DNA of 15,363 nt from a candidate division KSB1 bacterium (GTDB taxonomy: Bacteria; Zhuqueibacterota; JdFR-76; DREG01). The stretch is from contig JADFJB010000111.1 of assembly GCA_022566355.1 (NCBI GenBank), positions 1-15,363 of the forward strand. The letters run 5' to 3'. Positions 1 through 15,363 of this stretch are shown here, piece by piece; the first letter of the stretch is position 1; the number at the start of each line of letters is the position of its first letter. The translations under genes were made by a program, and so were the position numbers. The notes under the pieces were generated by a model, which worked only from the letters and a program-made list of their open reading frames with translations, did not search any database and had not been told where the DNA came from.

Positions 1-1
1 G

Positions 2-1072
2 GGGTACCTGGCCCGAGCGGCGTTCATCATGGACCGGCTGATGAGCAAGGTCGGCCTTCACGGCAAGAGTTTCATTCCACTGCTATCGAGCTTCGCATGC
101 GCGATACCCGGGAACATGGCCACGCGAACGATCGAGAACCGACAGGATCGGTTCGCGACAATTCTGGTGGCGCCGTTGATGAGTTGCTCGGCGCGGCTGC
201 CCATCTACACGCTGTTCATCGCAGCGTTTCTTCCCACAGGGACCCTACTGGGCCTCTTTTCTTATCAGGGAATTGCCATGTTCTCCATGTATCTCCTGGG
301 AACGGTGCTGTCCTTTTTCGCTGCATGGGTATTGTCCCGATTCGTGTTCAAGGGGGATTCATCCTTCTTCGCCATGGAATTGCCTCCCTACCGGCTGCCC
401 AGGCTCCGCCAGATATTGTGGCGCATGATCGATCGCAGCAAGGCTTTCTTTGTCCGCGCGGGAAAAATCATTTTCTGGATGAGCATCCTTCTCTGGCTGA
501 TGGCCCGGTACCCAAGCGTCGAGTTGGACCCTTCTTTCGAAGTCCGGCGGATCGCTGTTCAAGAGACCTATGACGCGTCTGTGGCCGCTGGCGACGATGG
601 CGAGGCGGCAGCGCTGATTTTCGGGGCCTCCATTCAACAACTTGATATCGACGCGGCGGGATACCGCATCGAGCGCAGTTTCATAGGCATGATGGGTCAT
701 GCACTCGAACCCGTAATGCGCCCCCTGGGATTTGACTGGAAGATCAGCGCCGGGATTATTTCTGCGTTTGTGGCGCGGGAGGTGATCATTTCGGCCCTGG
801 CAACCATCTACAGCGTTGGGGATTCGGATGAAAACAGCCCGATCCTGCGCGAGAAACTGAAGGCTGATAGGTATCCCGATGGAAGTCCCGTCTACACTCC
901 ACTGGTCGCGGCGAGCCTGCTCGTATTTTTTGTACTGGCTCTTCAGTGCATGAGTACGCTGGCCATAGCCCGCCGGGAAACCAATACCTGGAAATGGCCA
1001 TTAAGTCAATTATTTGGAATGACAGCAATTGCTTATATTGTAGCTTTAATAGCTTTTCAGTTGTTGAAATAA
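2..1072 (+). CDS. feoB: Ferrous iron transport protein B, C-terminal membrane part (5' cut by window edge)
   Basis: C-terminal half of FeoB, the inner-membrane Fe(II) importer. The reading frame is open from base 2 (first residues GYLARAAF), so the ATG at 29 is internal and the N-terminal GTPase domain lies outside the window. Visible FeoB signatures are the conserved helix GYLARAAFIMDRLM, the Cys-containing pore motif CAIPG followed by MATRTIE, the ILVAPLMSCSARLP segment, the MELPPYRLP loop, and the terminal CMSTLAIARRETNTWKWP motif. Several hydrophobic membrane segments alternate with these. A soluble, acidic, alanine-rich insertion sits between membrane segments at roughly bases 520-660. 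Oddity: bases 2 to about 1000 are GC-rich, but the last 24 codons are strongly AT-rich and resemble Bacteroidota FeoB tails, so the gene is a mosaic or an assembly chimera. The family call is secure; the integrity of the gene is not. Confidence 0.93.
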   Translation, partial: GYLARAAFIMDRLMSKVGLHGKSFIPLLSSFACAIPGNMATRTIENRQDRFATILVAPLMSCSARLPIYTLFIAAFLPTGTLLGLFSYQGIAMFSMYLLGTVLSFFAAWVLSRFVFKGDSSFFAMELPPYRLPRLRQILWRMIDRSKAFFVRAGKIIFWMSILLWLMARYPSVELDPSFEVRRIAVQETYDASVAAGDDGEAAALIFGASIQQLDIDAAGYRIERSFIGMMGHALEPVMRPLGFDWKISAGIISAFVAREVIISALATIYSVGDSDENSPILREKLKADRYPDGSPVYTPLVAASLLVFFVLALQCMSTLAIARRETNTWKWPLSQLFGMTAIAYIVALIAFQLLK

Positions 1073-1109
1073 AAAGATATGTTTAAACGGATAAAACGAC
1101 TAATAAATA

Positions 1110-1247
1110 ATGAATAGTACCCTACAAACTATATTTGTGATTATTACAGTGAGCTTTGCTGTTTTGTTTTTAGTGAAAAAATTCTTGTGGAAGCCAAAGA
1201 AAAGCGGTAGCAACTCTTGTGGAGAAGATGATTGCGGTTGTCATTAA
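1110..1247 (+). CDS. FeoB-associated Cys-rich membrane protein (45 aa)
   Basis: A 45-residue protein starting at ATG 1110, 37 bases after the feoB stop on the same strand. It has a single N-terminal membrane helix (about residues 7-22, IFVIITVSFAVLFLV), a basic stretch WKPKKS, and a Cys-rich tail with the pattern NSCGEDDCGCH at the C-terminus. Small proteins with one membrane helix, a Lys-rich linker and a CG..CGC-type tail directly downstream of feoB are the known FeoB-associated Cys-rich family of Bacteroidota and Firmicutes. Family members are thought to assist Fe(II) uptake, but their exact role is not established. No Shine-Dalgarno site is visible, as is common in Bacteroidota. The gene lies wholly in the AT-rich DNA, in keeping with the feoB tail just before it but not with the GC-rich feoB body. 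Confidence 0.82.
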   Translation: MNSTLQTIFVIITVSFAVLFLVKKFLWKPKKSGSNSCGEDDCGCH

Positions 1248-1289
1248 ACAAATTTAGTTTATTGTTGAAAGCAGTTAATTTTCTTATTA

Positions 1290-2708
1290 TTAAAACAATC
1301 TCCAAACTTGTGCCACTAAAAATGTAATCACAAATCCCATAATTACAGGCAAAATTGAGGCAACCGTTGTCCATTTTACACTGTTGGTTTCCTTGTAAAT
1401 GGTATAAATGGTTGTACTGCAAGGATTATGTAACAAACTGAATAACATTAAATTAACTGCTGTTAGTAAGGTCCAGCCACCTGCTTTTAAAATATCTCCC
1501 GTTGCATTTGCCGAATCCAATTCAAACATTACTCCTACACCCTCACCTCCAGGAATCCCACTTGCCATAACTGTTAACATTAAAATAGTTGGAATCACAA
1601 TTTCATTTGCTGGAATAGCAACAATGTATGCCAGTAAAATAACACCGTTCATTCCTAAAAGAAAACCAAAACCATCCAAAGAATTAATCGTTAGAGTAGC
1701 TATGCTTTCGTTCCCTATATAAATATTTGAAATCAACCAAATAACAGCTCCTGCCGGTGCTGCAAAAAGTATAGCCCGCCATAAAACAATTATAGTTCTA
1801 TCGATTAAAGAGGTATAAACAGTTTTCCAAAACCGTGGTGGACGATATGGTGGTAACTCTAAATTAAACGTGGAAACTTCTCCTTTTAAAACTGTTTTTG
1901 TTAATGCCCAAGACGTAAAAAACATGAAAAATATTCCTAAAATTGCAATACCAATAACTGCCGATAACGATGCAATTGCAGAAAAAGAAGCTGGAACTAC
2001 AGCTCCAATAAAAATGGTAGCAATTAAAATTTGCGTTGGCCAACGACCATTACATAAAGAAAAATTATTAGTGATAATTGCGATTAATCGTTCTCTTGGG
2101 CTGTCAATTATTCGAGTTGCTACCACTCCAGCGGCATTACACCCGAAACCCATACTCATAGTTAACGCTTGTTTACCATGTGCTCCGGATTTTTTAAACA
2201 TATAATCCAAATTAAATGCAACTCTAGGCAAATAACCAAAATCTTCGAGAAGTGTAAACATTGGAAAGAATATTGCCATTGGTGGTAACATTACAGCAAT
2301 TACCCAGGCTACTGCAAGATAAACGCCATCAATTAAAAACCCATCTAACCACCAAGGCATTCCAATGCTTGAAGCTAAACCTTTTAGTGCTGGATGCATA
2401 TTATCTAACAATAAATTCGCCAACATTGCCGAAGGATAATTAGCTCCAATAATAGTAAGCCAAAGAATCACACCCAAAATCATAAACATGATTGGGAAAC
2501 CCCAAGTTTTACTGGTTACAATTTTATCTATTTTAGTATCTAAACGAAACCGTTTTTTTTCATTATCAATACTTACAGACCCATTTGCAATTTCAGAAGC
2601 ATCAGCATAGATTCCTTCAGCAAGACCATCATGAAAATCGTCACCAATTTTCCAGCGTAAATCGCTTGATAAAGCTATTATATTGTCTATAGTATTTTTA
2701 TTAACCAT
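1290..2708 (-). CDS. FeoB-type ferrous iron transporter membrane domain lacking the GTPase domain
   Basis: A 472-residue membrane protein matching FeoB from the end of the GTPase/helical region onward. Residues 1-60 resemble the FeoB linker ([18 protein letters not shown]). Two gate/core regions follow, with the motif GFGCNAAGV around C190, then [24 protein letters not shown] and LELPPYRPP. The C-terminus carries [20 protein letters not shown]. The GFGCNAAG motif marks a FeoB subtype different from the plus-strand feoB at the left edge. The N-terminal G domain (about 200 residues with G1-G5 motifs) is absent: an in-frame stop (2715-2717) lies only two codons upstream of the ATG at 2708, and the overlapping upstream frame shows no GTP-binding motif. 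It is either a split FeoB whose GTPase is encoded elsewhere or a truncated gene. No Shine-Dalgarno site is visible. Confidence 0.85.
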
Positions 2709-2836
2709 TTTGCTTTACTGTTATTTATCCTAATTTTATTTTTTATAATTTCTAAAGGTTTAGAATTAAAGTGAAAAATTATACCTTCTTTTTTTAGTTT
2801 TTCTAAAAGTAAGTTTGCAATTTCATTAAAACTCAT
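2687..2836 (-). pseudogene. Possible remnant of a truncated gene upstream of the minus-strand FeoB
   Basis: The frame from an ATG at 2836 gives 49 residues ending at 2687 and overlapping the next gene's start by 22 bases. It includes NEIANLLLEKLKKEGI and a following F.FNSKPLEI stretch. The pattern (helix, then short strands around a Gly-Ile) faintly recalls the NAD-binding part of FAD-dependent disulfide oxidoreductases, but this is too weak to assign. It contains no GTPase motif, so it does not supply the missing FeoB G domain. The frame stays open upstream to 2956, but that extension lies under the plus-strand membrane ORF and looks unrelated. It may be the 3' end of a gene cut off at a junction near 2840, or chance coding. 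Confidence 0.25.
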
Positions 2837-2879
2837 TTCCTGGATTGCACACCGTGAGTATAAAATTGAGTTAGTAGCT

Positions 2880-3281
2880 TTGCTTGATATAATTATAAGC
2901 GCCCTACTGACCATATTACTGCATGCTTGCCTAAAAACGATCGAATCGGGAAACATAAGTGCAATTTTTATTCAGGTTATAGATTCAACCAATTTTTTTA
3001 TTAAAATTATAACATTAAATATTTCAAACGTAAACCAATATTATCCTATGATACCCATTCTTCTAACGACGTTCATACCCGTAGTATTTTATATGGGAAT
3101 ATTCATCGTACTAGGTTTAATAGTAAAACCTATAACCCGATTTACAGGTTACGTATGCAAATTAATTTTCGAAAAAGAAAAATCACCATTTTTTCAACTT
3201 TCATTAATTTTGTCATTTCTTATTACCTTTATAAAAGCGTTATCACAATGGGAATGGTTTGTATATATTCTTAAAAATTAA
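2880..3281 (+). CDS. Hypothetical membrane protein, start uncertain
   Basis: No family recognised. From a TTG at 2880 the frame encodes 133 residues with three hydrophobic segments: about residues 3-18, 57-83 (ending GIFIVLGLIV) and 103-120 (FFQLSLILSFLITFIKAL). Short charged stretches such as FEKEKS separate them. The frame is open upstream to 2775 with no ATG or GTG, and the first internal ATG (residue 57) would remove the first membrane segment. The true 5' end is therefore either TTG-initiated or lost at a junction near 2840. The DNA is AT-rich. A plus-strand membrane protein of this kind is plausible, but nothing in the neighbourhood points to a function. Confidence 0.45.
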   Translation: MLDIIISALLTILLHACLKTIESGNISAIFIQVIDSTNFFIKIITLNISNVNQYYPMIPILLTTFIPVVFYMGIFIVLGLIVKPITRFTGYVCKLIFEKEKSPFFQLSLILSFLITFIKALSQWEWFVYILKN

Positions 3282-3386
3282 AAGATTGTTGTCAAAATAT
3301 ATAATGCTCTGAAGTACATCCAATTGCATTAGGAAAATACTTAATTAGTGAAATCCAAAACGGATTAATTTATAACCAGATCTGAT

Positions 3387-3392
3387 GAAGGG
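3387..3392 (+). promoter_or_regulatory. Shine-Dalgarno site for the CTG-initiated pentapeptide-TIR gene
   Basis: GAAGGG lies six bases before CTG at 3399. An in-frame TAA (3393-3395) sits between them, so translation in this frame cannot begin further upstream. The only other candidate start using this site, ATG at 3385, overlaps the site itself and runs into a stop after 11 codons. This supports the CTG at 3399 as the initiator. Confidence 0.6.
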
Positions 3393-3398
3393 TAAAAA

Positions 3399-4517
3399 CT
3401 GGCCAACTCCGAACATCTAAAAATTCTTAAACAAGGTGTAGAGGCCTGGAATAAGTGGCGGAAAGAAAATCCGGACATTATACCTGACCTAACAGGCGTA
3501 GACCTCATAGGAGCAAACCTCAATGATGCCAACCTAAGTAGAGCAAACCTTATACAAGTAGACCTCAAACAAGCAAACCTCTTTAGAGCAGACCTAACAT
3601 ATGCAAACCTCACAGAAGCAAAGCTCAACGAAGCAAACCTCAGACAGGCAAACCTCTTTAAAGCAGATCTCACACAAGCAAACCTCATTGGAGCAGTCCT
3701 CAATGGAGCAGACCTCAAAGGAGCAAACCTTAACGGAGCAAACCTCGAAGAAGCAAGTCTTTATGGAGCAAAACTCATAGGAGCGACCCTCATAGGATCA
3801 ATCCTCGCAAAAACAATCCTCTTAGAAGCAGACCTCACAGAAGCGAACTTAAAACAAGCATGGCTATTCGAGACTATTTTTTCAAATGTCAATTTATCGA
3901 ATGCAATAAATACAGATTCGTGTAAACATTTTGGCCCTAGCACTATAGATCATCGTACGTTAATAAAATCAGGCAATCTCCCGGTAAAATTCCTCCGTGG
4001 CTGCGGCTTGCCGGATTTCATCATTAAGAATATCAGCGTCTTGCGGGAAGACCCCATACAGTATTACTCCTGCTTTATCAGCTACTCAAGCAAAGACCAG
4101 GAGTTTGCGGAAAGACTCCATGCCGACCTACAGAATAAAGGGGTGAGGTGTTGGTATGCCCCGCATGATTTAAAAGGCGGTAAAAAGATTTATGACCAGA
4201 TTAACCAGGCAATAAGAACTTACGACAAGCTTTTACTGATCCTTTCTAAAAACAGTATGAACAGCGATTGGGTTGCCCAAGAAATTAAAACAGCAAGAAA
4301 GCGGGAAAAGAAAGAAGACCGCAAGATGTTTTTTCCTATTACATTAGTTAATCATACTGCACTGGAAAAATGGGATTTATTCGATGCGGCAACCGTTACC
4401 AATCTCGCCGATGAAGTTCGCGAATATTATATTCCGGATTTCTCAAATTGGAAAGACCATGATTCCTACAAAAAATCATTTGAACGGCTTCTCCGGGATC
4501 TGAAAGGAGAATCTTGA
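3399..4517 (+). CDS. Pentapeptide-repeat protein with C-terminal TIR domain, apparent CTG start
   Basis: The frame is open from a stop at 3393 to 4517 and gives 372 residues if read from CTG at 3399. No in-frame ATG, GTG or TTG occurs before 4008. The N-terminus (M)ANSEHLKILKQGVEAWN followed by ENPDIIPDL is the familiar leader of pentapeptide-repeat proteins, supporting 3399. Residues about 34-168 are roughly 27 tandem A(N/D)LxX pentapeptides, expected to form a right-handed quadrilateral beta-helix. A linker follows, then a TIR_2-type domain from about residue 222. It starts YYSCFISYSSKDQEFAERLH, continues with GVRCWYAPHDLKGG and LLLILSKNS, and ends near 355. E295 in SDWVAQEIKTA fits the conserved Glu that is catalytic in NAD-cleaving TIR domains. 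There is no signal peptide. Bacterial TIR proteins are often NADase effectors or scaffolds in defence or signalling; the role here is inferred. No partner gene is adjacent. Confidence 0.85.
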   Translation: MANSEHLKILKQGVEAWNKWRKENPDIIPDLTGVDLIGANLNDANLSRANLIQVDLKQANLFRADLTYANLTEAKLNEANLRQANLFKADLTQANLIGAVLNGADLKGANLNGANLEEASLYGAKLIGATLIGSILAKTILLEADLTEANLKQAWLFETIFSNVNLSNAINTDSCKHFGPSTIDHRTLIKSGNLPVKFLRGCGLPDFIIKNISVLREDPIQYYSCFISYSSKDQEFAERLHADLQNKGVRCWYAPHDLKGGKKIYDQINQAIRTYDKLLLILSKNSMNSDWVAQEIKTARKREKKEDRKMFFPITLVNHTALEKWDLFDAATVTNLADEVREYYIPDFSNWKDHDSYKKSFERLLRDLKGES

Positions 4518-4564
4518 TCCACTCCCAGGATAAGCACGGAGAGACATAGTTGGAGTTTGAAAAA

Positions 4565-4609
4565 GTGGGTAGAGCCTGCCATACCATTATGTCCCACGTA
4601 CCATGTGGG
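4565..4609 (+). other. Possible alternative stem-loops upstream of the DUF2442 gene
   Basis: GTGGG at 4565-4569, CCCAC at 4593-4597 and GTGGG at 4605-4609 allow two mutually exclusive stems. The right-hand stem (CCCACGT, loop ACC, ATGTGGG) has seven pairs if one G-U is counted. It lies 45 bases before the DUF2442 start. It could be a terminator remnant of the preceding gene, a small repeat, or chance; no U-run follows directly. Confidence 0.25.
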
Positions 4610-4654
4610 TGGAGAACATTTGAAAAAAATTAAGCCTTTAGTGTAGGAGAAATT

Positions 4655-4912
4655 ATGTTTCTAAATGTAAAAAGTGTTTCTTATTTAGGGGGATACAAAA
4701 TCAAATTAGAATTCAACGATGGTGTAATCAAAGATATTGATTTAAAAGATGAGTTATTTGGTGAAGTTTTTGAACCGTTGAAGGATGTTAATGTTTTTAA
4801 ACAAGTGAAAGTGAATTCAGAAATCAATACAATCGAGTGGCCTAATGGAGCTGATTTTTCACCGGAATATTTGTATGAAATTGGAGAAGAAATAATAAGA
4901 ACTGCTTACTAA
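4655..4912 (+). CDS. DUF2442 family protein
   Basis: An 85-residue protein with the full-length DUF2442 pattern: an N-terminal VKSV..LGGYKIKLEFNDG strand pair, DLKDELFGEVFEPLKD in the middle, and IEWPNGADFSPEYLYE near the C-terminus. The function is unknown. Family members are often encoded next to DUF4160 proteins in toxin-antitoxin-like pairs, but no DUF4160 gene is visible here, so it stands alone. A clear AGGAG lies five bases before the ATG. It follows the TIR gene by 137 bases, is probably expressed separately, and is followed by the palindromic repeat element. Confidence 0.85.
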   Translation: MFLNVKSVSYLGGYKIKLEFNDGVIKDIDLKDELFGEVFEPLKDVNVFKQVKVNSEINTIEWPNGADFSPEYLYEIGEEIIRTAY

Positions 4913-4975
4913 GTCGTCTGTTTCATAACTTTGGTGACGTAATTTTGAAATGGGTTATAGAGGGGTAGTATCCAA

Positions 4976-5046
4976 TAACCCCTCCTAACCTCTCCTTATC
5001 AAGGGGAGGAATTTCCCCTCCTTAACAAGGAGGGGTCAGGGGTGGT
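4976..5046. repeat. Palindromic CCCCTCC/GGAGGGG dispersed repeat element (MITE- or REP-like)
   Basis: A block of about 70 bases made of nested inverted repeats: CCTTATCAAGG-type and CCTTAACAAGG-type hairpins with G-rich and C-rich arms. The left end (AACCCCTCCTAACC) is approximately the inverted complement of the right end (GGGGTCAGGGGTGG), so the whole unit is one imperfect palindrome. Similar CCCCTCCTT...AAGGAGGGG elements occur many times in genomes of several environmental phyla. It has no coding capacity and only one copy is present here. It sits between DUF2442 and paaZ and could fold in RNA as a terminator or 3' end stabiliser. Confidence 0.7.
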
Positions 5047-5175
5047 CAAATTATGACTTTTTTGATGTTGATAAGTGCAATTTTTATATGTTACTGTAGT
5101 TATGTTTTATATACTTAAATAGTGAATCATTAAAAATTATTAAACTAATTTTAGACAATAAACAATAGGCAACCC

Positions 5176-7218
5176 ATGAAAATAAAAAGCTTTGCAGAAG
5201 GGAAATGGCATACCAGCGGTGAAAATGGCACCGAAGTATTTAATGCCGTTAATGGCGATAAAGTCGGGGAAGTGTCGAGCCAGGGATTGGATTTTAAATC
5301 GATGCTGGAGTATGCCCGTTCTGTTGGAGGGCCTAAATTACAGAAGATGACTTTTCATGAACGCGCCATCATGCTCAAAGAAATGGCAAAATATCTAATG
5401 GAAAGAAAGACTGAATTTTACGCCGTTTCAGCAGCTACAGGCGCAACAAAATTAGATTCATGGATCGACATCGAGGGCGGAATTGCGACTTTTTTCGTCT
5501 ACTCAGGAAAAGGCCGCCGGGAACTGCCCAATGAGACATTCTATGTCGAAGGGGATTTGGAGCCGCTCTCGAAAAATGGCACATTTGTTGGCCGGCATAT
5601 TTGTGTACCATTAAACGGTACTGCCGTCCATATCAACGCCTTCAATTTCCCATGTTGGGGCATGCTGGAAAAATTGGCGCCGACATTTTTGGCCGGAATG
5701 CCTGCGATTATTAAACCCGCCAGTCTCACCTGTTATCTGACCGAAAAGATGGTGCAGGCCATGATCGAATCGAAGATATTGCCTGAAGGAGCGCTGCAAT
5801 TGATCTGCGGCAGCGTGGGTGATTTATTCGATCATTTAACCAGTCAGGATGTGGTTACCTTTACCGGCTCCGCAGTGACCGGTAGAAAGCTAAAGGCCCA
5901 TACCTCGATCATCGAAGAATCGATCCGGTTTAATATGGAAGCGGATTCATTGAATTGCTCGATACTTGCGCCGGATGCCAATCCGGACACGGAAGAATTC
6001 AAACTGTTTATCAAAGAAGTTGCCAATGAAATGACCGTTAAAGCGGGACAGAAATGTACTGCCATCCGCCGGACAATTGTTCCTGATAACATGACTGAAG
6101 ATGTGATCAAAGCATTGCAAGAGCGCTTATCTAAAATCAAAATTGGCGATCCTGCTATTGAAGGAGTCCGGATGGGGCCTTTAGCTGGAAAACCACAAGT
6201 GCTGGAAGTACATGAAAGAGTGGCTGAAATCAAAGGGGATTCCGAACTGGTTTTTGGATACGATCAACAAATGGAATTCATCGGCGGAAATATTGAGTTG
6301 GGCGCCTTCTCCCCCACTACCCTGCTATATTGTGAAGATCCATTTAACAAGACAACGCCGCATGATGTCGAAGCCTTCGGCCCGGTTAGTACGGTAATGC
6401 CATATGAGTCTTTGGATGATGCCATCCAGCTCGCGGCATTGGGGAAAGGAAGCCTGGTAGGTTCCTTGTTTACAGCCGATGATTCTGTGGCAAAAGATGT
6501 CGTCATGGGCCTGGCGCCTTACCATGGCAGGATCATGGTGATCAATAAAGAATGTGCCAAAGAATCTACCGGACATGGATCTCCCATGCCTCACTTAATC
6601 CATGGCGGTCCCGGACGCGCCGGCGGCGGTGAAGAAATGGGAGGCATCCGCAGTGTTCTGCATTACATGCAGCGAACCGCTCTGCAGGGCTCTCCTACTA
6701 CTCTTACAAAAGTAAGTAATGAGTGGATGAAAGGCGCCGCTCAACCGCAAGACCGGATTCATCCATTCCGAAAATATTTTGAAGAACTGGAAATTGGTGA
6801 GACGCTGGTAACCCATCGCAGAACCATTACCGAAGGTGATATTGTCAATTTTGCCGGCATCAGCGGCGATTTCTTCTATGCCCACATGGATGCCATCGCG
6901 GCGAAGGAATCCCTGTTTAAAAAGAGAGTCGCTCATGGCTACTTTGTCCTTTCTGCTGCAGCCGGACTTTTTGTCCATCCCGCTCCCGGTCCGGTTCTGG
7001 CTAACTACGGCTTGGATAACCTGCGCTTCACTGAGCCAGTTTATATTGGCGATACGATTTATGTAAAACTGACCTGCAAGAGGAAAACAGTCAAACAAAA
7101 ACGCGAAGAAGATGATATTCCACAGGGCATTGTCGAATGGGCTGTTGAAGTGCTCAACCAGGATGAGGTTACGGTTGCGGTGTATACAATTTTGACATTG
7201 GTGCAAAAGAAGGAATAA
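5176..7218 (+). CDS. paaZ: PaaZ-like bifunctional oxepin-CoA hydrolase / semialdehyde dehydrogenase
   Basis: A 680-residue protein with an aldehyde dehydrogenase domain (about 1-520) fused to a MaoC-like hotdog domain (about 535-680), the PaaZ architecture and length. In phenylacetate catabolism PaaZ hydrolytically opens oxepin-CoA and oxidises the resulting semialdehyde to 3-oxo-5,6-dehydrosuberyl-CoA with NADP+. Visible key residues are E255 (MEADSLNC) and the nucleophile C294 (GQKCTAIRR) in the dehydrogenase domain, with N157 in INAFNFP. In the hydratase domain the D565...H570 pair lies in GDFFYAHMD, followed by RVAHGYFVLSAAAGLF. Both active sites look intact. It starts at ATG 5176 with a weak upstream AGG. 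A HicB-like gene follows after 19 bases and then an enoyl-CoA hydratase family gene, probably one transcript. No paaABCDE or paaK is in the window, so a related CoA-thioester substrate is possible. Confidence 0.9.
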   Translation: MKIKSFAEGKWHTSGENGTEVFNAVNGDKVGEVSSQGLDFKSMLEYARSVGGPKLQKMTFHERAIMLKEMAKYLMERKTEFYAVSAATGATKLDSWIDIEGGIATFFVYSGKGRRELPNETFYVEGDLEPLSKNGTFVGRHICVPLNGTAVHINAFNFPCWGMLEKLAPTFLAGMPAIIKPASLTCYLTEKMVQAMIESKILPEGALQLICGSVGDLFDHLTSQDVVTFTGSAVTGRKLKAHTSIIEESIRFNMEADSLNCSILAPDANPDTEEFKLFIKEVANEMTVKAGQKCTAIRRTIVPDNMTEDVIKALQERLSKIKIGDPAIEGVRMGPLAGKPQVLEVHERVAEIKGDSELVFGYDQQMEFIGGNIELGAFSPTTLLYCEDPFNKTTPHDVEAFGPVSTVMPYESLDDAIQLAALGKGSLVGSLFTADDSVAKDVVMGLAPYHGRIMVINKECAKESTGHGSPMPHLIHGGPGRAGGGEEMGGIRSVLHYMQRTALQGSPTTLTKVSNEWMKGAAQPQDRIHPFRKYFEELEIGETLVTHRRTITEGDIVNFAGISGDFFYAHMDAIAAKESLFKKRVAHGYFVLSAAAGLFVHPAPGPVLANYGLDNLRFTEPVYIGDTIYVKLTCKRKTVKQKREEDDIPQGIVEWAVEVLNQDEVTVAVYTILTLVQKKE

Positions 7219-7237
7219 GAGAAAAGTAAAAAGTAAA

Positions 7238-7447
7238 ATGAAATACATGGTCGTCATTGAGAAAGCGAAACGCAACTATAGTGCGTATGTCCCTGATTTG
7301 CCGGGCTGCGTTGCCGCAGCAGAAACTAAAAATGAAGTAATTGATCTTATCAAAGAAGCACTTCAATTTCATCTTGAATCTTTTACAAATGATGGCGAGC
7401 AAATTCCAGAACCGAATTCTTCAAGCACTTACATTGAAGTAACGTAA
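7238..7447 (+). CDS. HicB-like antitoxin-family protein (orphan)
   Basis: A 69-residue protein with the HicB/UPF0150 pattern: an N-terminal strand MKYMVVIEKA, then YSAYVPDLPGCVAAAET, then the helix IDLIKEALQFHLE and the dG..IPEP turn. HicB proteins normally neutralise the HicA mRNA-interferase toxin and carry a C-terminal DNA-binding domain. This is the short partial-RNase-H-fold version with no DNA-binding tail. No HicA-like gene with its conserved His is adjacent. It lies 19 bases after paaZ and 18 bases before the enoyl-CoA hydratase gene on the same strand, so it is embedded in a metabolic operon. It is either a solitary family member or the remnant of a pair. Confidence 0.8.
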   Translation: MKYMVVIEKAKRNYSAYVPDLPGCVAAAETKNEVIDLIKEALQFHLESFTNDGEQIPEPNSSSTYIEVT

Positions 7448-7465
7448 ATTTATAAAAGGAGTCTC

Positions 7466-8224
7466 ATGATTGAATCCGGATCAACTACTGTTCAAATCGA
7501 TAAAGGCATCGGCACCCTTACTTTTTACCACCCCAAGAAAAATTCTCTCCCGGGTGACCTTCTCAAAAATACAGCCAATGAAATAAATAACCTGGCGAAA
7601 AATGATGAAGTCAAAGTCGTCGTTCTGCGAAGCGGTGGAGACGGCCCTTTTTGTGCCGGCGCCTCATTCGATGAGCTGATGGCAGTCGACAGCATGGAAA
7701 ATGGCAGAGATTTTTTCATGGGTTTTGCGGGTGTTATTATGGCGATGAAGAATTGTCCAAAATTTGTGATTGCTCGCGTACACGGAAAAACAGTTGGCGG
7801 GGGTGTTGGCATTGTTGCAGCTTCAGATTATGCCATTGCAACCAATAACGCATCGATTAAACTCAGCGAATTAGCGCTTGGGATTGGCCCATTCATTATT
7901 GGACCGGCCGTTGAGAGGAAAATCGGTAAAAGCGCCTATGCCGCAATGAGCATCGATGCCGATTGGCGCGATGCCAATTGGGCAAAACAGCATGGGCTCT
8001 ATACGGATGTTGTTGAATCAGTGGAAAAATTAGATAATACCGTAGACGACCTCTGTAAAAAATTAGCTTCATTTAACCCGGAAGCAATGGCTGAATTAAA
8101 ATCCGTATTTTGGGAGGGTACGGAACATTGGGAAGAGCTTTTACCCAAAAGAGCAGAAACAAGCGGGAGGTTGGTGTTGTCTGATTTTACTTCTAAAGCA
8201 ATTCAAGCCTTTAGGAAAACATAA
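7466..8224 (+). CDS. Enoyl-CoA hydratase/isomerase family protein
   Basis: A 252-residue crotonase-fold protein, normal length for the family. The oxyanion-hole motifs are present: PFCAGASFDEL (about 61-71) and KTVGGGVGIVAASDYAIA (about 108-125). E135 in LSELALGIGPF corresponds to the second catalytic Glu of hydratases, while the position of the first Glu is G115. That pattern fits an isomerase or another crotonase reaction better than a classical two-Glu hydratase. AAGGAG (7456-7461) gives a good ribosome site four bases before the ATG. Position in the paaZ operon suggests a step in breakdown of a ring-derived or unsaturated acyl-CoA (a PaaF/PaaG-type role), but the exact reaction cannot be read from the sequence. 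Confidence 0.88.
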   Translation: MIESGSTTVQIDKGIGTLTFYHPKKNSLPGDLLKNTANEINNLAKNDEVKVVVLRSGGDGPFCAGASFDELMAVDSMENGRDFFMGFAGVIMAMKNCPKFVIARVHGKTVGGGVGIVAASDYAIATNNASIKLSELALGIGPFIIGPAVERKIGKSAYAAMSIDADWRDANWAKQHGLYTDVVESVEKLDNTVDDLCKKLASFNPEAMAELKSVFWEGTEHWEELLPKRAETSGRLVLSDFTSKAIQAFRKT

Positions 8225-8296
8225 ACCAATCAATATCATATACTATTTATAAGTTGATGCTGCTTTACTTATTATTCTGGCATCGCTAATGCTTCC

Positions 8297-9499
8297 CTAC
8301 CCCCAATTCTCCAAAACCTCAACAAATTTAGTTAGAAACGTATTGGCCTGAAATCCATCAAGAGCCCGATGGTCGATGGTAAGTGTGACATAAATCATGG
8401 GTTTGATTTGGATGCTGTCTGTTCCCTTCACTTCTGAAACCACCACTCGTTTTTCCAACTTGCCAATTCCTAGTATAGCAGATTGCGGTTGGTTAATAAT
8501 AGGCGTAGCAATCAAGCTGCCGCTAACGCCATGGTTGGTGATGGTGAATGTTCCATTATGCACTTCATGCTGCTCCAGTTTGTTGTTCCTGGCTCGATTG
8601 GTCAAATCCTGCAACTTTTCAGCGATACTATAAAGATCGAGGTTTTGAGCCTGGTGAAGAACCGGAACGATCAATCCGCCTTCCAGAGCAGTGGCAATAC
8701 CGATGTTGCAATCCGCAAATAATTCCAGGCCATCGTCATGCCAACAACTATTCACTTCAGGGACAGCATGCAATGCGTCAACTACTGCTTTCACAAAATA
8801 GGCTGTGTAGGTCAGTTTAATCCCTCTTCGTTGAAAATCTTCCTTATGATTTTCTCGATGTGCAATTACAGCCGACATGTCGGCATCAAAAATAGCCGTA
8901 ACATGTGGCGCGGTTTTAAGCATGCTGTCCACCATATGATGTGCAATGCTCAATCGCATAGGAGTGTGTGCAATTTTTCTATCAGTTAGTTTGTCAATTA
9001 CAGCTTCTTTTGGTTGATCTTTGACAGATGTTTCTAAATAATTCTCAACATCCTGAAACGAGATTCTCCCTCTTTTCCCCGATCCTTTAATTTGACTTAC
9101 ATTTATATTATGTTGTTTTACCAATCTACGTACAGAAGGACTAAGCCTTGTTTCCTGGTTGGTAAATTCGGAATCAGATAGTACTGTTTCTGTAATTTGT
9201 TGAATTTTATCTGCAGGCTGGATGGGTGCGATCTCTTTCTGTTCAGAACCCTCTTCAACCAATTGGATTCGACCTAAAATATCTCCAATCTCAATTTGCT
9301 CATTTTCATGTTTTAATATCTCAACCAATACACCATCAGCTGGAGATGATATCTCAACATTGACTTTGTCCGTACTGATTTCCAGAATCGGCTCGTAGAG
9401 TTCAATACGATCGCCAACATTCTTCAACCAACTGGCTATGACTGATTCCGTACCCTCCTGGCTGGATTCGGGAAGAATAATGTCTATTTTTTCTGCCAT
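8297..9499 (-). CDS. Dihydrolipoamide acyltransferase (E2) of a 2-oxoacid dehydrogenase complex
   Basis: A 400-residue E2 with the full domain order. The N-terminal lipoyl domain carries K45 in EISTDKVNVEIS. A peripheral subunit-binding domain lies at about 118-155 (LSPSVRRLVKQH, GSGKRGRIS). The C-terminal acyltransferase domain carries the catalytic DHRALDG motif (H377, D381). It transfers the acyl group from the lipoyl arm to CoA and forms the core that binds E1 and E3. The start lies 24 bases after the stop of the fused E1 gene on the same strand, so they are one operon. A single lipoyl domain and the sequence style suggest a branched-chain or broad 2-oxoacid complex, but pyruvate or an aromatic 2-oxoacid cannot be excluded. 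No E3 gene is nearby. It is the last gene of the leftward group. Confidence 0.93.
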   Translation of the reverse strand: MAEKIDIILPESSQEGTESVIASWLKNVGDRIELYEPILEISTDKVNVEISSPADGVLVEILKHENEQIEIGDILGRIQLVEEGSEQKEIAPIQPADKIQQITETVLSDSEFTNQETRLSPSVRRLVKQHNINVSQIKGSGKRGRISFQDVENYLETSVKDQPKEAVIDKLTDRKIAHTPMRLSIAHHMVDSMLKTAPHVTAIFDADMSAVIAHRENHKEDFQRRGIKLTYTAYFVKAVVDALHAVPEVNSCWHDDGLELFADCNIGIATALEGGLIVPVLHQAQNLDLYSIAEKLQDLTNRARNNKLEQHEVHNGTFTITNHGVSGSLIATPIINQPQSAILGIGKLEKRVVVSEVKGTDSIQIKPMIYVTLTIDHRALDGFQANTFLTKFVEVLENWG

Positions 9500-9523
9500 G
9501 AAAATTTATCGTTCTTTGATTAT

Positions 9524-11611
9524 TTAAAAGTTAATCATTTCACCAATCTTACCGGCAATGGTATCAACATTCGGTAAAATAGCATTCATCAATCCAACAT
9601 TGTAGGGAATAGGAACATCGGGTGTCGTTAATCTTTCAACAGGCGCATCCAGGTCTAAAAATAATTTTGAAGCGACGACGGCTGCGATTTCCGCACCGAA
9701 ACCTGCGGTCGAATTGTCTTCATGAACAATTAAACAACGTCTGGTTTTCTTTATTGAATTTAATACGGCATTTTTATCCCAGGGCATAATGGTTCTCAAG
9801 TCCAGGATTTCAACGGAATATCCCGCTAGTTTTACAGCCAGTTCGCACCTTTCCACCATGGCGCCCCAGGTAATCAAGCTGATTTGATTTCCATCCTGAA
9901 TGATCTTTGCTTTACCCGCTGGCAAAGCAAAATGATCACCAGGATACGGTCTGCGGGCCCAGGGGGTATCCAACATATGCCTATGTTCAAAAAAGATTGT
10001 TGGATTATTACTGCGCATAGCTGTTCGTAACAACCCGACAGCATCTTCAGCATTCGAAGGATAAAAAACCTGCCAACCGTGTCCGTGCGCCCAGATGACT
10101 TCACCACACACACTATGCCAGGGATCGCCGCATTTGAAAAATCCTCCTGGCAAACGTACTACAATTGGCGCTGCAAATCGATTAGCTGTTCGCCAACGAA
10201 TCGTGCCGCAATTATTTAGCTGCTCTGTTGCAGCATCTGCATACTTTCGAAATTGAATCTCGGCTACCGGCATTAAACCGGCAATTGCCATTCCGACCGA
10301 TCTGCCGATTATACCCTCTTCTGACAAACTGGTATCAAAAACCCGTTCCTCGCCAAACTTTTCGTGTAATCCCATGGTCACCGCATGGACACCACCCTTA
10401 ACTCCCACATCCTCACCAAAAACAAGCAGTTTTGGATTGGTCTCCAATTCGGATTCCAGAGTTCGACGAATTGCCGTTACCATATTTATTCGTGTTGGCT
10501 CAGGATTGGGGAGATCAGTTGATTCAGGAAATGTGTATCTTTCTGCAGCTAAACCGCCCTTCATTTGAAGATCTGGTGTTTCATCGTCATTATTCTCGGC
10601 AAACACATATTTTGCCACCTTCTTTTTATCCGGCTCCGGACGATTTAATGCAGCGGTTAATGCATGGTTGACCTCATCCTGAATATCACATCTGAATTTC
10701 GAAAATTCAGTTTCTGTGAAGTAAGTAGGTACCAGGTATTGAACTAATTTTTTAAGGGGATCTTGCTCTTGTTCTTCCTTTACGAATTCATCAGTTTTAT
10801 AGGCTTGCGTATCCTGGCCGGAATGGCCACTCAATCTCGGGACCGTCAAACGAATTAGGGCAGGTCCTTTATGCTGTCGAACATAGCTCACGGCATCGGA
10901 CAATTTACTGGCAGCTTCGCCAGGATTGCAGCCATCACCATCGAGGATATGCAGGTTATTAAACGAAGCTAAGTTTTGTGCGATATTAGATCCAGGTGTT
11001 TGTTTGTCTGCCTTCACTGAGATGGCGTATTCATTATCTTCTATGTAGAACAGAAGGGGTAGTTTGAGTGTGGTTGCCATGGTAAGCGATGACCAAAAGC
11101 CATTGGTGGCGACGGCGCCCTCCCCTGCTAAGACCACGGAAATTGCATCCTGGTATTCCTTTTCTTTTAGAACATTGTAGCGATAAAGTATAGCCTGGGC
11201 ATAACCTGCAGCTGGTGTGAATTGAGAACCAACATCACCTGCCATGGGTATAACTATCGCTCCATCCTTATTGGGAAAGTTAAAAACAACACCAATATCC
11301 CTTCCGTCACTAATTCCACCTGATTTCGCCATTGGACCAGCAAAAGCATCTTCGATTCCCAATCCCAACGTCAAAAGCAATGGTCGAGATCGATAATAAG
11401 CACTTGCGGCATCAACCTTATTGGTTAGCAGTGATCCAAGCAAAACCTGGCTGAGGTCATGGCCCCTGGCGGAAAATTGATAAAGGACTATTCCTTTCGG
11501 GGTGAGTGTTGTCTCCTCAATTTCATCAAGCTCTCTGGAAATTAAAATATACCTGGCAATTTTTGTCCAATCAAAATTCGGATCAATATTACTGTTAGTC
11601 ATCTTCTCCAT
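9524..11611 (-). CDS. 2-oxoacid dehydrogenase E1, fused alpha and beta subunits
   Basis: A 695-residue fusion of E1-alpha (about 15-330) and E1-beta (about 370-695), a form common in Bacteroidota and relatives. Alpha shows YYRSRP (72-77), the thiamine diphosphate/Mg motif starting GEGA at 163 and closing at N193 (EDNEYAIS), and HSG (263-265) of the phosphorylation-loop region. Beta shows MVTAIRRTLE, VFGEDVG, and DTSLSEEGIIG with the thiamine-activating Glu at about 431. It decarboxylates a 2-oxoacid and acylates the lipoyl group of E2 (next gene). The first ATG (11611) is nine bases after hisC; a second ATG three codons in, preceded by GGAG, is an alternative start. Branched-chain 2-oxoacids are the likeliest substrate; phenylpyruvate is an attractive alternative given paaZ nearby. 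Confidence 0.93.
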   Translation of the reverse strand: MEKMTNSNIDPNFDWTKIARYILISRELDEIEETTLTPKGIVLYQFSARGHDLSQVLLGSLLTNKVDAASAYYRSRPLLLTLGLGIEDAFAGPMAKSGGISDGRDIGVVFNFPNKDGAIVIPMAGDVGSQFTPAAGYAQAILYRYNVLKEKEYQDAISVVLAGEGAVATNGFWSSLTMATTLKLPLLFYIEDNEYAISVKADKQTPGSNIAQNLASFNNLHILDGDGCNPGEAASKLSDAVSYVRQHKGPALIRLTVPRLSGHSGQDTQAYKTDEFVKEEQEQDPLKKLVQYLVPTYFTETEFSKFRCDIQDEVNHALTAALNRPEPDKKKVAKYVFAENNDDETPDLQMKGGLAAERYTFPESTDLPNPEPTRINMVTAIRRTLESELETNPKLLVFGEDVGVKGGVHAVTMGLHEKFGEERVFDTSLSEEGIIGRSVGMAIAGLMPVAEIQFRKYADAATEQLNNCGTIRWRTANRFAAPIVVRLPGGFFKCGDPWHSVCGEVIWAHGHGWQVFYPSNAEDAVGLLRTAMRSNNPTIFFEHRHMLDTPWARRPYPGDHFALPAGKAKIIQDGNQISLITWGAMVERCELAVKLAGYSVEILDLRTIMPWDKNAVLNSIKKTRRCLIVHEDNSTAGFGAEIAAVVASKLFLDLDAPVERLTTPDVPIPYNVGLMNAILPNVDTIAGKIGEMINF

Positions 11612-11620
11612 TTGTAAAAA

Positions 11621-12712
11621 TCAATTGAGAATATCCTTTAACGCTTTGACGCACATCACATTTTCCCACGGTTGTCCTACCGTTATCCGCATACAATTTG
11701 GCAGACCAAAGAATTTTAATGGCCGAACGATGATGCCTCGCTGCAAAAGTGATTGATCTACTTCAGTTACTTTTGCTTCGTTTTCAAATTCAATCATTAT
11801 AAAATTAGCAAACGATTCAAAATACCGCAATCCAATTTCAGCAAATGCATTTGAGAAGTATTCCAGGCCAATTTTATTATTCTTTATGGTTTTGCTAAGA
11901 AACTCTTCATCTTCAATTGCACCAGAGCCTGCTGCTTGCGCAAGAACAGATGGTTCGAAGGTTAATTTTACTTTTGATAAAGTATCAATGACAAACGGAT
12001 CTGCGAGTCCATAACCAATTCGCATTCCGGCTAAGCCGTAAGCTTTAGAAAATGTCCTGAGTGTAATAATATTCCCAAAGTCCTTAAATGTCATTTTCGG
12101 GTAGTCCGTCGATAAATCACTGGCAAATTCATGATAAGCCTCATCCATAACCACCAAAATATTCGGGGAAACTTGCGACATAAAATGAGTAAATGCAGAT
12201 TCATTGAACATGGTACCGGTAGGATTATTCGGATTGGCTAAATAAATGACTTTTGTTTTTGAGGATATTGCTGACAGGATGGCATCCAAATCGTATTGAT
12301 ATCCTGGTTTCATCGGAGTTTTAACCAACGGAATATTATTAGCTTCGGCCATAATATAAACAGTAACAAAAGTATTGCTGGCTGTCAGAAGCTCATCACC
12401 TGGCTCAAAAAAAGCCTTACAAACATTCGTAAGGATTCCTTCAGAACCATTCCCAACTATAACATTTTCTATGGTGATATTATACTTATTAGCAATTTTA
12501 GCCTTTAAATCATAACAAGAGGGATCGGGGTACCAATTGGTTTCACCGATCACTTTTTGCATTGATGCTATTGCATTGGGGGAAGATCCTAAGGTGTTTT
12601 CATTGGAAGATAACTTAGCAATTTTCTCCTGTCGATTATCAGTAATATCGTCTGCCCTTTTTCCTGGTTGATAGGTCACTAATTCGGCAATATTTTGTGG
12701 TACTCTAATCAT
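11621..12712 (-). CDS. hisC: HisC-type aminotransferase (histidinol-phosphate/aromatic aminotransferase)
   Basis: A 363-residue fold-type I PLP enzyme, typical HisC length. Visible features are KLSSNEN near residue 33, GNGSEG (cofactor phosphate loop, 87-92), NPNNPTG (160-166), MDEAYHEF with D190 pairing the pyridine nitrogen, and the Schiff-base lysine K223 in TFSKAYGLAGMRIGYG. HisC converts imidazole-acetol phosphate to histidinol phosphate, but close homologues also transaminate aromatic amino acids. No other his gene is in the window, and it is nine bases upstream of the 2-oxoacid dehydrogenase E1 gene. A catabolic or aromatic aminotransferase role is therefore as likely as histidine synthesis. 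The gene symbol denotes the family. It appears to be the first gene of the hisC-E1-E2 transcript, unless read through from folE. Confidence 0.88.
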   Translation of the reverse strand: MIRVPQNIAELVTYQPGKRADDITDNRQEKIAKLSSNENTLGSSPNAIASMQKVIGETNWYPDPSCYDLKAKIANKYNITIENVIVGNGSEGILTNVCKAFFEPGDELLTASNTFVTVYIMAEANNIPLVKTPMKPGYQYDLDAILSAISSKTKVIYLANPNNPTGTMFNESAFTHFMSQVSPNILVVMDEAYHEFASDLSTDYPKMTFKDFGNIITLRTFSKAYGLAGMRIGYGLADPFVIDTLSKVKLTFEPSVLAQAAGSGAIEDEEFLSKTIKNNKIGLEYFSNAFAEIGLRYFESFANFIMIEFENEAKVTEVDQSLLQRGIIVRPLKFFGLPNCMRITVGQPWENVMCVKALKDILN

Positions 12713-12746
12713 AATTCAATTACAATTTTCTATAGTTGAGGAAAAT

Positions 12747-12765
12747 TAGTCGGTTATCCGATCTA
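12747..12765. terminator. Weak stem-loop between folE and hisC
   Basis: TAGTCGG and CCGATCTA pair around a TTAT loop with one bulged T, giving about seven pairs. On the minus strand it is followed by AATTTT, and on the plus strand by a T-rich stretch. It lies about 107 bases after the folE stop and 35 bases before the hisC start. It could end the folE transcript or be part of the hisC leader. The stem is weak, so confidence is low. Confidence 0.25.
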
Positions 12766-12872
12766 ATTAATTTTTGGTACGGTAGGATTTCCAAAATCAT
12801 TATGCATTTATGTTAAGAAAAATAAAATCAAAGGCATATTATTTTTTAGTAATTTTTGGTTAATTGTCTACT

Positions 12873-13421
12873 TCATTTCAACAAACTAAAAAATTCTTCC
12901 CTTGTTGATAAGTTCTCCCTGAACATACCCAGGACACACGAAGTGATCATACTCGAGTTTTGTTTTTCAACTCCCCGCATCATCATACAAAGATGTTGTG
13001 CTTCGATAACGACTGCAACTCCTGCAGCATCGACCGCATCCATTATTGTATCAGCGATTTGTTTTGTTAGTCTTTCCTGAATTTGCAATCTCCTGGCAAA
13101 CACATCCACAATCCGGGCAATTTTGGATAATCCAAGAATTTTGCCATTCGGTAAATAGCCTACATGGCATTTCCCGATAAATGGTAATAAATGATGTTCA
13201 CAAAGCGAATATAGCTCAATATTCTTTATCAATACTATTTCATCCATATCAGATTTAAAAACAGCGCCATTGATTATTTGCTCTGTATTTTCATTGTAGC
13301 CTTTGGTTAGAAAATGAAATGCTTTTGCAGCTCTTCTGGGTGTATCCCTGAGACCTTCACGATTTGGATCTTCACCAATGCCTTGAAGCAATTCATAGTA
13401 ATTTTTTTCCATATGTTCCAT
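12873..13421 (-). CDS. folE: GTP cyclohydrolase I
   Basis: A 182-residue GTP cyclohydrolase I, normal length. The enzyme opens the GTP ring to give 7,8-dihydroneopterin triphosphate, the first step to folate and pterin cofactors. Zinc and catalytic residues are visible: C74, H76 and H77 in [10 protein letters not shown], then H143 and C145 in [11 protein letters not shown]. Other family signatures are [33 protein letters not shown] and RLQIQERLT. The ATG at 13421 is followed by another at residue 4; the true start could be either. It is transcribed leftward and separated from hisC by 160 bases containing a weak stem-loop. It may serve folate alone, or also supply a pterin cofactor for aromatic amino acid hydroxylation, but no hydroxylase gene is present. 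Confidence 0.95.
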
Positions 13422-13783
13422 TTTTAAACTCTAATTCAAGCTGGATTATTTGAACGATAACTGAAATTATTTAAAGTTTGAAGTTATAAGAATCAACTAA
13501 TACTTTCAAACGAATATCAGCCACATCATTGTATAATATTATTTATCCAATGAAATCTAAGGAGTCTAATTTTATTAAATTTGATAAACACAATCTAAGT
13601 TGTTATTTTTTCTTGTATCTGGTTTTTAGTTTTGATATATTGCCTCTTAAAATATAAAATGAAATGATGTATTATTATTTTTTCTATTTTCCGCACAAGA
13701 AAACATTGTACTTCTTTTAAAATCAAGTTTATAAGTTAACCGTTGGGAATTTCAAATTCACAATTCAAGGAAGATTGATAACT
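13422..13783. other. AT-rich divergent intergenic region
   Basis: About 360 bases between folE (leftward) and the YjbQ-like gene (rightward), so it should hold both promoters. It is strongly AT-rich with several A/T runs. A TATAAT sequence occurs at 13532-13537, but no matching -35 box is evident at the right distance, so no promoter is assigned. AAGGAAG at 13767-13773 is a ribosome site for the ATG at 13784. No credible ORF, RNA gene or repeat was seen. Confidence 0.5.
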
Positions 13784-14854
13784 ATGGCACAATCTATCAA
13801 TGAAATTGCATTAGAAATAACCCCCAAACAACGTTTTGATGTTATCGATATTAAAGAATTAATACGGCAACAATTTGGCGATTTTCTGGATCAGTATAAA
13901 AAATCCTACTATTGCTCGTTTCATACCACTGCCGGATATTTCGAGCAGAGTCTTTGCTCCAGGTTAAAACACTCTAAAGAACACTTAACTCCATTCATCA
14001 GTGCTTTTCAAAATATTTTCCCTTCGGGCGCAAATTATCGTCATGACCAAATTCAACTTCGAACTGAGCTATCTGAATCCGAAAAGAGAAATGAACCGAA
14101 AAATGCCGATTCACACCTGATCTATATGAGTTCTGGTTTGAAAAATTGTGTAAAATATGAGAATAAACCGGATTTACCGGTTTATTTCGTAGATCTGGAT
14201 GGTGTAAATGGAAATGGATCTCGAGCCAGAAAAACTACAATTTTAGGATTTGACAAAGAGGAAACAGTCCACCAAACTCAAATAGCAGTTCCGGTCTCGA
14301 AACATCCGGTTGATTCGGTTAATCTCAAAACCGTTCGCAGTGGTTTTTTTGATGAGTTGAATGAAAAATTGCGTTCGTTAGACGTTAGAAAAGGTATGGT
14401 AGATATTTGTTTGGCCCCCGATGAAATGAATTCTTCGCTAATTGTAAACGAATACGAAACGCTTCTTATGCGGCATGATCTTGCGGAAGTTCTAAAAAAC
14501 CCTTTTCAATTTATGGCACAACAAGGGAAACATATGCTTCTCAATCCTGCAGCTATACCCAATAAAACCATTAACTACGCAAAGTACGATTTGGTCCAGG
14601 TTTTTAATGAGTTAATGGATGCTCTCAAGATTAGCGAATCCGTTGTGGAAAAAATTCTGGCTGCAATTTTCAGGATGCCGGCTTCCCGATTCTTCCGCAT
14701 GAAACGAAGAATCAGCCTTTTCGTTTCCGATCATGAACAGCCAGGGGTAGGCCAAATTATTCTCGGTAAATACCAAAGCCCCATCCTGGTACAATGGGCC
14801 AATGCCCGCCACCAGACCAGGCAAATCAATGTGAGAATCAGGAAATTTAAATAA
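13784..14854 (+). CDS. YjbQ/UPF0047-like domain protein with long C-terminal extension
   Basis: A 356-residue protein from ATG 13784; a TTG at 13775 is possible but falls too close behind AAGGAAG. Residues about 5-155 match the YjbQ/UPF0047 fold: SFHTTAGYFEQ (H47), NYRHDQIQL (H87), NADSHLIYMSSGL (H111), and LPVYFVDLDG ... RARKT in place of the usual lGtwQ.i...e.dg..R.R ending. YjbQ proteins are normally about 135-140 residues with weak thiamine-phosphate-synthase-like activity reported and an unclear physiological role. Here roughly 200 more residues follow. They include a helical segment (YDLVQVFNELMDALKISESV) and a final GVGQIILGKYQS ... TRQINVRI that resembles a second copy of the YjbQ C-terminal strand motif. 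It is a stand-alone gene; the function is unknown. Confidence 0.72.
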   Translation: MAQSINEIALEITPKQRFDVIDIKELIRQQFGDFLDQYKKSYYCSFHTTAGYFEQSLCSRLKHSKEHLTPFISAFQNIFPSGANYRHDQIQLRTELSESEKRNEPKNADSHLIYMSSGLKNCVKYENKPDLPVYFVDLDGVNGNGSRARKTTILGFDKEETVHQTQIAVPVSKHPVDSVNLKTVRSGFFDELNEKLRSLDVRKGMVDICLAPDEMNSSLIVNEYETLLMRHDLAEVLKNPFQFMAQQGKHMLLNPAAIPNKTINYAKYDLVQVFNELMDALKISESVVEKILAAIFRMPASRFFRMKRRISLFVSDHEQPGVGQIILGKYQSPILVQWANARHQTRQINVRIRKFK

Positions 14855-14910
14855 GCCCCGATTTTTTATTTCCTAGTTGTACTCCTTTTTCAAAATTTCG
14901 ATATCTTCAA

Positions 14911-15201
14911 TCAAACGACTAACTTCAGTAGGAAAAGTTCCTTTATAAACTCCCCGAATTCTTGTTTGGTTACTGCTTTGTATTCCGCGATTTTAAATTC
15001 ATCAGGGATTAACCCTATGTACCTTTGTAGGTCTGTTCCTCCGTCATCTAAATAATCCTTTTCAAAGTCGGCTGCACTTTCCCAAACGTCTTCATCACTG
15101 AAACGCTCGTATGAATCGGAAACGGTACAGTAAAAAGAAAACTCCTTTGGCTGCATGTCTGTTGCATACATTTGATGTCCAATGTCTATAAATCGTTTCA
15201 T
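14911..15201 (-). CDS. Hypothetical acidic small protein
   Basis: A 96-residue soluble protein with no recognised family. It is rich in Asp, Glu and aromatic residues, with a run of acidic and aromatic residues in the middle (SDEDVWESAADFEKDY) and FIDIGHQM near the N-terminus. There is no membrane segment or signal peptide. The start ATG is only two bases after the stop of the preceding small gene on the same strand, so the two are almost certainly co-transcribed and perhaps translationally coupled. It converges with the YjbQ-like gene, leaving 56 bases between them. Confidence 0.6.
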   Translation of the reverse strand: MKRFIDIGHQMYATDMQPKEFSFYCTVSDSYERFSDEDVWESAADFEKDYLDDGGTDLQRYIGLIPDEFKIAEYKAVTKQEFGEFIKELFLLKLVV

Positions 15202-15203
15202 AC

Positions 15204-15363
15204 CTAAACGCTTTTAAATGCTATATACACTTTACCTACAGTCCACAACTTCAATCCATCCTTACTGAAAATTGATTCAGCATCCTTTAGAGTTTTGGAG
15301 TCTTTTATGTGTACAAATACACTGTGCAGCTTCTGCCAATCCATTGTTAAAGCAAAGTACTCC
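15204..15363 (-). CDS. Hypothetical small protein (5' end at or beyond window edge)
   Basis: The frame is open from the right edge and gives 52 residues ending in KVYIAFKSV before a TAG at 15204-15206. An internal ATG at 15344 would make a complete 46-residue protein starting MDWQKLHSVFVHIKDSK; otherwise the gene extends out of the window. The sequence is soluble and mixed charge, with no recognised family. It directly precedes the acidic small protein gene (two-base gap), forming a pair of tiny co-transcribed genes whose joint role is unknown. Confidence 0.5.
   Translation of the reverse strand, partial: EYFALTMDWQKLHSVFVHIKDSKTLKDAESIFSKDGLKLWTVGKVYIAFKSV

Follow-up and report, generated by a model that had tools for sequence, protein, structure and literature searches.

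The window analysed here is the entire contig C111 of the host genome G000 (15,363 nt), and it begins with a feoB frame in which the base composition changes abruptly, raising the question of whether this frame is a real hybrid gene or a join made during assembly. The host assembly comprises 4.6 Mb in 213 contigs, with a completeness of 98.5% and an estimated contamination of 0.21%. Relatives were searched in samples of genomes, with scoring limited to the top candidates of each genome. The samples included 114 genomes of the order containing Roseithermus sacchariphilus (Rhodothermota; Rhodothermales), 397 Flavobacteriaceae, a subset of a larger group (the family that includes Pontimicrobium aquaticum), and 58 relatives of the host, and all three sets were used in the search for the hybrid. 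As a compositional background we used stretches sampled from the host genome and cut into pieces of the same length. The features of the window are listed in Table 1.

Table 1. Coordinates and properties of the features along the window.
Feature	Position	Strand	Properties
Rhodothermales-type feoB, 3' part	1-976	+	GC 57%; 5' end lost at contig end
Junction 23-mer	977-999	+	GAAACCAATACCTGGAAATGGCC; encodes ETNTWKWP; found in members of both groups
Flavobacteriaceae feoB C-terminal tail	977-1072	+	GC 31%
FeoB-associated Cys-rich small membrane protein	1110-1247	+	45 aa; FeoB_associated (PF12669), 26.9 bits against a cut-off of 27.0
Permease half of second, split FeoB (Flavobacteriaceae donor)	1290-2708	-	Gate and FeoB_C, without FeoB_N
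Second breakpoint, end of Flavobacteriaceae similarity	2739-2749		A/T run
AT-rich piece	2750-3300		GC 28%; 51 selected genomes searched, none with a convincing match
Host contig body	3301-15363		GC 41%; G000-typical tetranucleotides, 4899-5117 repeat, G001 matches

Composition switch and ownership of the contig

The initial annotation had given GC contents of about 63% at 541-600 and 27% at 1021-1080, in agreement with the 63.3% and 26.7% measured here. Taken as a whole, the two parts of the frame display 57.3% (1-976) and 31.3% GC (977-1072), and GC3 falls from 70% before codon 325 to 26% after it. The maximum likelihood change point in the first 1,250 bases is located at 999, with a flat optimum from 976 to 1001 and a log-likelihood gain of 29.3, compared with a maximum of 9.1 among 500 shuffles. 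The abrupt switch that had been described near base 1000, just after the conserved motif, is thus real in its abruptness and misplaced in its position, since homology puts it within the motif itself, at 976/977 or immediately beyond. The frame is preserved across the switch, as had been claimed, and is open from its very first bases to 1072. It does not encode an intact FeoB: it harbors only the Gate and FeoB_C domains, that is, the 3' part of a feoB gene truncated by the contig start, and its TIGR00437 score (255 bits) lies under the cut-off of 315.65.

The tetranucleotide distance of 1-976 to the sampled host genome is larger than that of each of 1007 equally long pieces, and the GC content of this part is above that of all 520 host pieces tested. 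The sequence that follows is extreme, though not unique for the host, with 3.4% (977-2749) and 3.7% (2750-3300) of the same-length pieces being as far or farther from the background. The GC jump between the first and second kilobase amounts to 0.235 at the window start and to at most 0.111 in 59 other contig starts of the host; therefore, the data do not indicate that such events are frequent in the assembly. A search for common end words among 59 sampled contig starts of the host, which might have revealed the word length used by the assembler, found none. Another contig of the host, C180 (locus L130), also displays a high local GC (around 0.6) over its first 500 bases, where a TPR-repeat-like gene lies on the minus strand; this start is more likely to reflect a contig break caused by repeats than foreign DNA.

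Regarding the remainder of the contig, a repeat of around 200 bases at 4899-5117 recurs on six other host contigs (74-76% identity), and parts of the region from about 10 to 15 kb match G001, a genome of the same family as the host, at 65-73%. Ownership by the host holds from about 4.9 kb on, and the sequence from 3.3 kb onward is compatible with it by composition. Misbinning of the whole contig was considered and rejected, most of it being host DNA. A search for up to 150 genomes of the host phylum returned 82, against at least 397 for the Flavobacteriaceae, which implies that the two do not share a phylum. The contig body therefore belongs, at least from about 4.9 kb, to a third bacterium from another, small phylum. 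A 16S rRNA gene was looked for in the host genome and not found, and the FeoB proteins of the phylum relatives of the host gave no close match to a named lineage.

Two further observations concern this body. A core of around 70 bases of the 4899-5117 repeat is also found in the relative G002 in both orientations, so that it is partly palindromic. The frame at 3402-4517 (+) fuses a long pentapeptide-repeat stretch, periodic over 15 bases at the DNA level, to a C-terminal TIR domain, and its TIR part is weakly similar to TIR proteins of anti-phage systems.

Relatives of the two sides

Using the comparison of tetranucleotides and best matches that the initial annotation had proposed, we found that the side lying beyond all host pieces has its best relatives in Rhodothermales and the other side in Flavobacteriaceae, two separate and distant lineages. 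A near-identical donor was not found for either side in the genomes searched (best identity 82% on the left and 96% on the right).

The frame 2-1072 as a whole has its best relatives in Rhodothermales. Its first 870 bases share 82% DNA identity with genome G558 (locus L154), the best value among the 114 genomes, and its residues 1-325 are 88% identical to the feoB fragment of that locus, 73-75% identical to the FeoB proteins of two other Rhodothermales loci (L053 and L014), and only 40-41% identical to Flavobacteriaceae FeoB. Of the Rhodothermales matches extending as far as the conserved motif, nearly all end at 999/1000, and the last 31 residues of the frame, unlike the rest, are of a non-Rhodothermales type. 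The 5' half of this feoB was not found on any host contig, the sole strong match to a FeoB G-domain in the host being its own split FeoB on contig C41. Likewise, matches to 1-1300 are absent from the family and order relatives of the host. The closest Rhodothermales feoB (L154, on G558:C264) is likewise truncated by the end of its contig, close to the 3' part of the gene and at the site corresponding to window base 870.

The initial annotation had described the tail and the following Cys-rich gene as Bacteroidota-like, and their origin can now be narrowed to Flavobacteriaceae. The tail residues are identical at 29 of 31 positions to the FeoB of locus L046 and at 28 of 31 to that of L152, versus 14 of 28 for Rhodothermales, and its first 41 bases (977-1017) match L152 exactly. 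The similarity extends well past the gene, with 95% DNA identity between 977-2749 and L046 (contig JADFSQ010000079.1) and 96% between 977-2702 and L152 (genome G378). To the left of 977 there is no close identity to either of these genomes, which run into their own intact FeoB of 698 residues, 40-41% identical over the left part of the window. The identity over 977-2749 is uneven, ranging from less than 80% to 100% per 50 bases and being 100% over several hundred bases, which suggests that the donor was a third, closely related strain.

Both Flavobacteriaceae loci display the same gene order: an intact feoB, the Cys-rich FeoB-associated gene in the same position as in the window, and, on the opposite strand, the permease half of a split FeoB adjoining a FeoB-type G-domain gene directly upstream of it (6609-7427 (-) in L046 and 3954-4772 (+) in L152). 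Compared with this ferrous-iron transport locus, the window retains three parts at 95-96% identity, namely the feoB tail, the Cys-rich gene and the convergent permease half, whereas a different FeoB body precedes the motif and the G-domain gene of the split FeoB is absent. The split second FeoB, with separate G-domain and permease genes, lies beside the classical feoB at 5078-7427 in L046 and 3954-6265 in L152. The host also has a split FeoB (C41, 8064-10204), the permease genes sharing around 65% DNA identity.

The junction word and the second breakpoint

The junction 23-mer is identical in L046, L152, several other Flavobacteriaceae loci and one Rhodothermales locus (L019), so a sharing of this word between the two groups is possible; the word of the Rhodothermales donor itself was not seen. 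The exact 23-mer occurs in one of the 114 Rhodothermales genomes and, allowing up to two mismatches, in four of them, a rarity implying that the sequences may in fact overlap by fewer than 23 bases. The exact 47-mer across the junction is absent from viral contigs, and no second copy of the hybrid was detected among the 114 Rhodothermales, the 397 Flavobacteriaceae or the 58 host relatives.

The foreign DNA runs further than the initial annotation had noticed, to 2749 and perhaps to 3300, and it also overlooked that the owner of the contig is a third bacterium. Similarity to L046 ends at 2749 and similarity to L152 at 2702, the sequence beyond being different in each, and the abrupt end at 2749 is where the G-domain partner of the split FeoB is lost. 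Within the AT-rich piece that follows, the frame 2880-3281 (+) encodes a hydrophobic protein of 133 residues for which no plasmid match and no convincing relative in the host phylum were found. The frame 2687-2956 (-) is weakly similar to pyridine nucleotide-disulphide oxidoreductases (E 0.0035, below cut-off), an identity that we rejected as it finds no support from solved structures or NCBIfam.

Origin of the hybrid and its meaning

We consider the first 2.75 kb or so of the contig (possibly 3.3 kb) to be an assembly chimera rather than a real hybrid gene, with a probability of around 0.86. The two sides have separate origins, the common word lies at the switch and is identical in members of both groups, the similarities end abruptly, and the hybrid is absent from the relatives searched. 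We infer that the join arose during assembly and not inside a cell, and that all the sources were present in one sample. The initial annotation's suggestion that an assembler joined two organisms at a common motif is well supported. In such a process, fragments of a Rhodothermales feoB and of a Flavobacteriaceae feo locus, whose owners presumably lived in the same community, would have been joined at the short identical word in their feoB genes, and the Flavobacteriaceae piece would then have been joined to the contig of the third bacterium, either directly or through the AT-rich piece. When homologous genes are joined at a common word, the frame and the position in the alignment are necessarily preserved, which explains why the frame looks intact. 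An assembly chimera is favored over recombination given the three lineages at one contig end, the join at a common word and the absence of the hybrid from the relatives. The location of the foreign part at the very end of the contig is in agreement with this origin, and a tendency of chimeric contigs to form between highly similar homologues has been described (PMC4133164). Against it count the low estimated contamination of the host bin, from which contaminating neighbours would not be suspected, the best donor identities of only 82% and 96%, and the rarity of the exact 23-mer in Rhodothermales. The contig resembles metagenome chimeras in which species are joined through a short identical word, as it shows a conserved coding motif with the frame kept, an abrupt switch of composition and taxonomy, and a position at the contig end; it differs from them in combining three lineages within 15 kb, and in being recognized here from sequence instead of reads.

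A real hybrid would require that the host or its ancestor acquired both Rhodothermales and Flavobacteriaceae feo DNA, or that the hybrid formed elsewhere through homologous recombination at the conserved motif and was then transferred. The preserved frame and a crossover at a homologous position within identical sequence are what such an origin predicts, and horizontal transfer of feo systems is on record (PMC8749426). We nevertheless regard it as improbable, since two or three independent joins between distant lineages would be needed within 3.3 kb beside a contig end, with around 23 identical bases at the crossover in genes whose proteins are elsewhere about 40% identical. Moreover, relatives of the three lineages searched do not display the hybrid, both sides are compositionally unameliorated, and the split FeoB lacks its G-domain partner. 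That a bacterium of a third phylum carries a recent, in-frame Rhodothermales/Flavobacteriaceae hybrid FeoB, formed in nature through around 23 bp of identity, is in our judgment very improbable.

More improbable still is that 977-15363 is continuous in the host, as the result of a true transfer of the Flavobacteriaceae feo fragment, the Rhodothermales end alone being misassembled. The composition of 977-3300, extreme yet within the range of the host, is compatible with this, and an insertion in vivo could truncate genes at both ends. However, an identity of 95-96% to present-day genomes would demand a very recent transfer, and the piece is bounded by a join within an A/T run, with no integrase or transposase among the frames read around it. 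Finally, a natural change of composition within a single feoB gene has the open frame as its one argument and practically no chance of being correct, as each side has separate close relatives and smooth drift is refuted by the Rhodothermales and Flavobacteriaceae genes, which each cross the motif in their own style.

If the hybrid were true, it would represent an unusual recombination between distant lineages over a very short identity. Under the assembly chimera that we favor, neither iron uptake genes nor gene transfer should be attributed to the host on the basis of the first 2.75-3.3 kb of the contig, and a bin estimated to be 98.5% complete and 0.21% contaminated can still contain a contig that combines three lineages and keeps an open frame.
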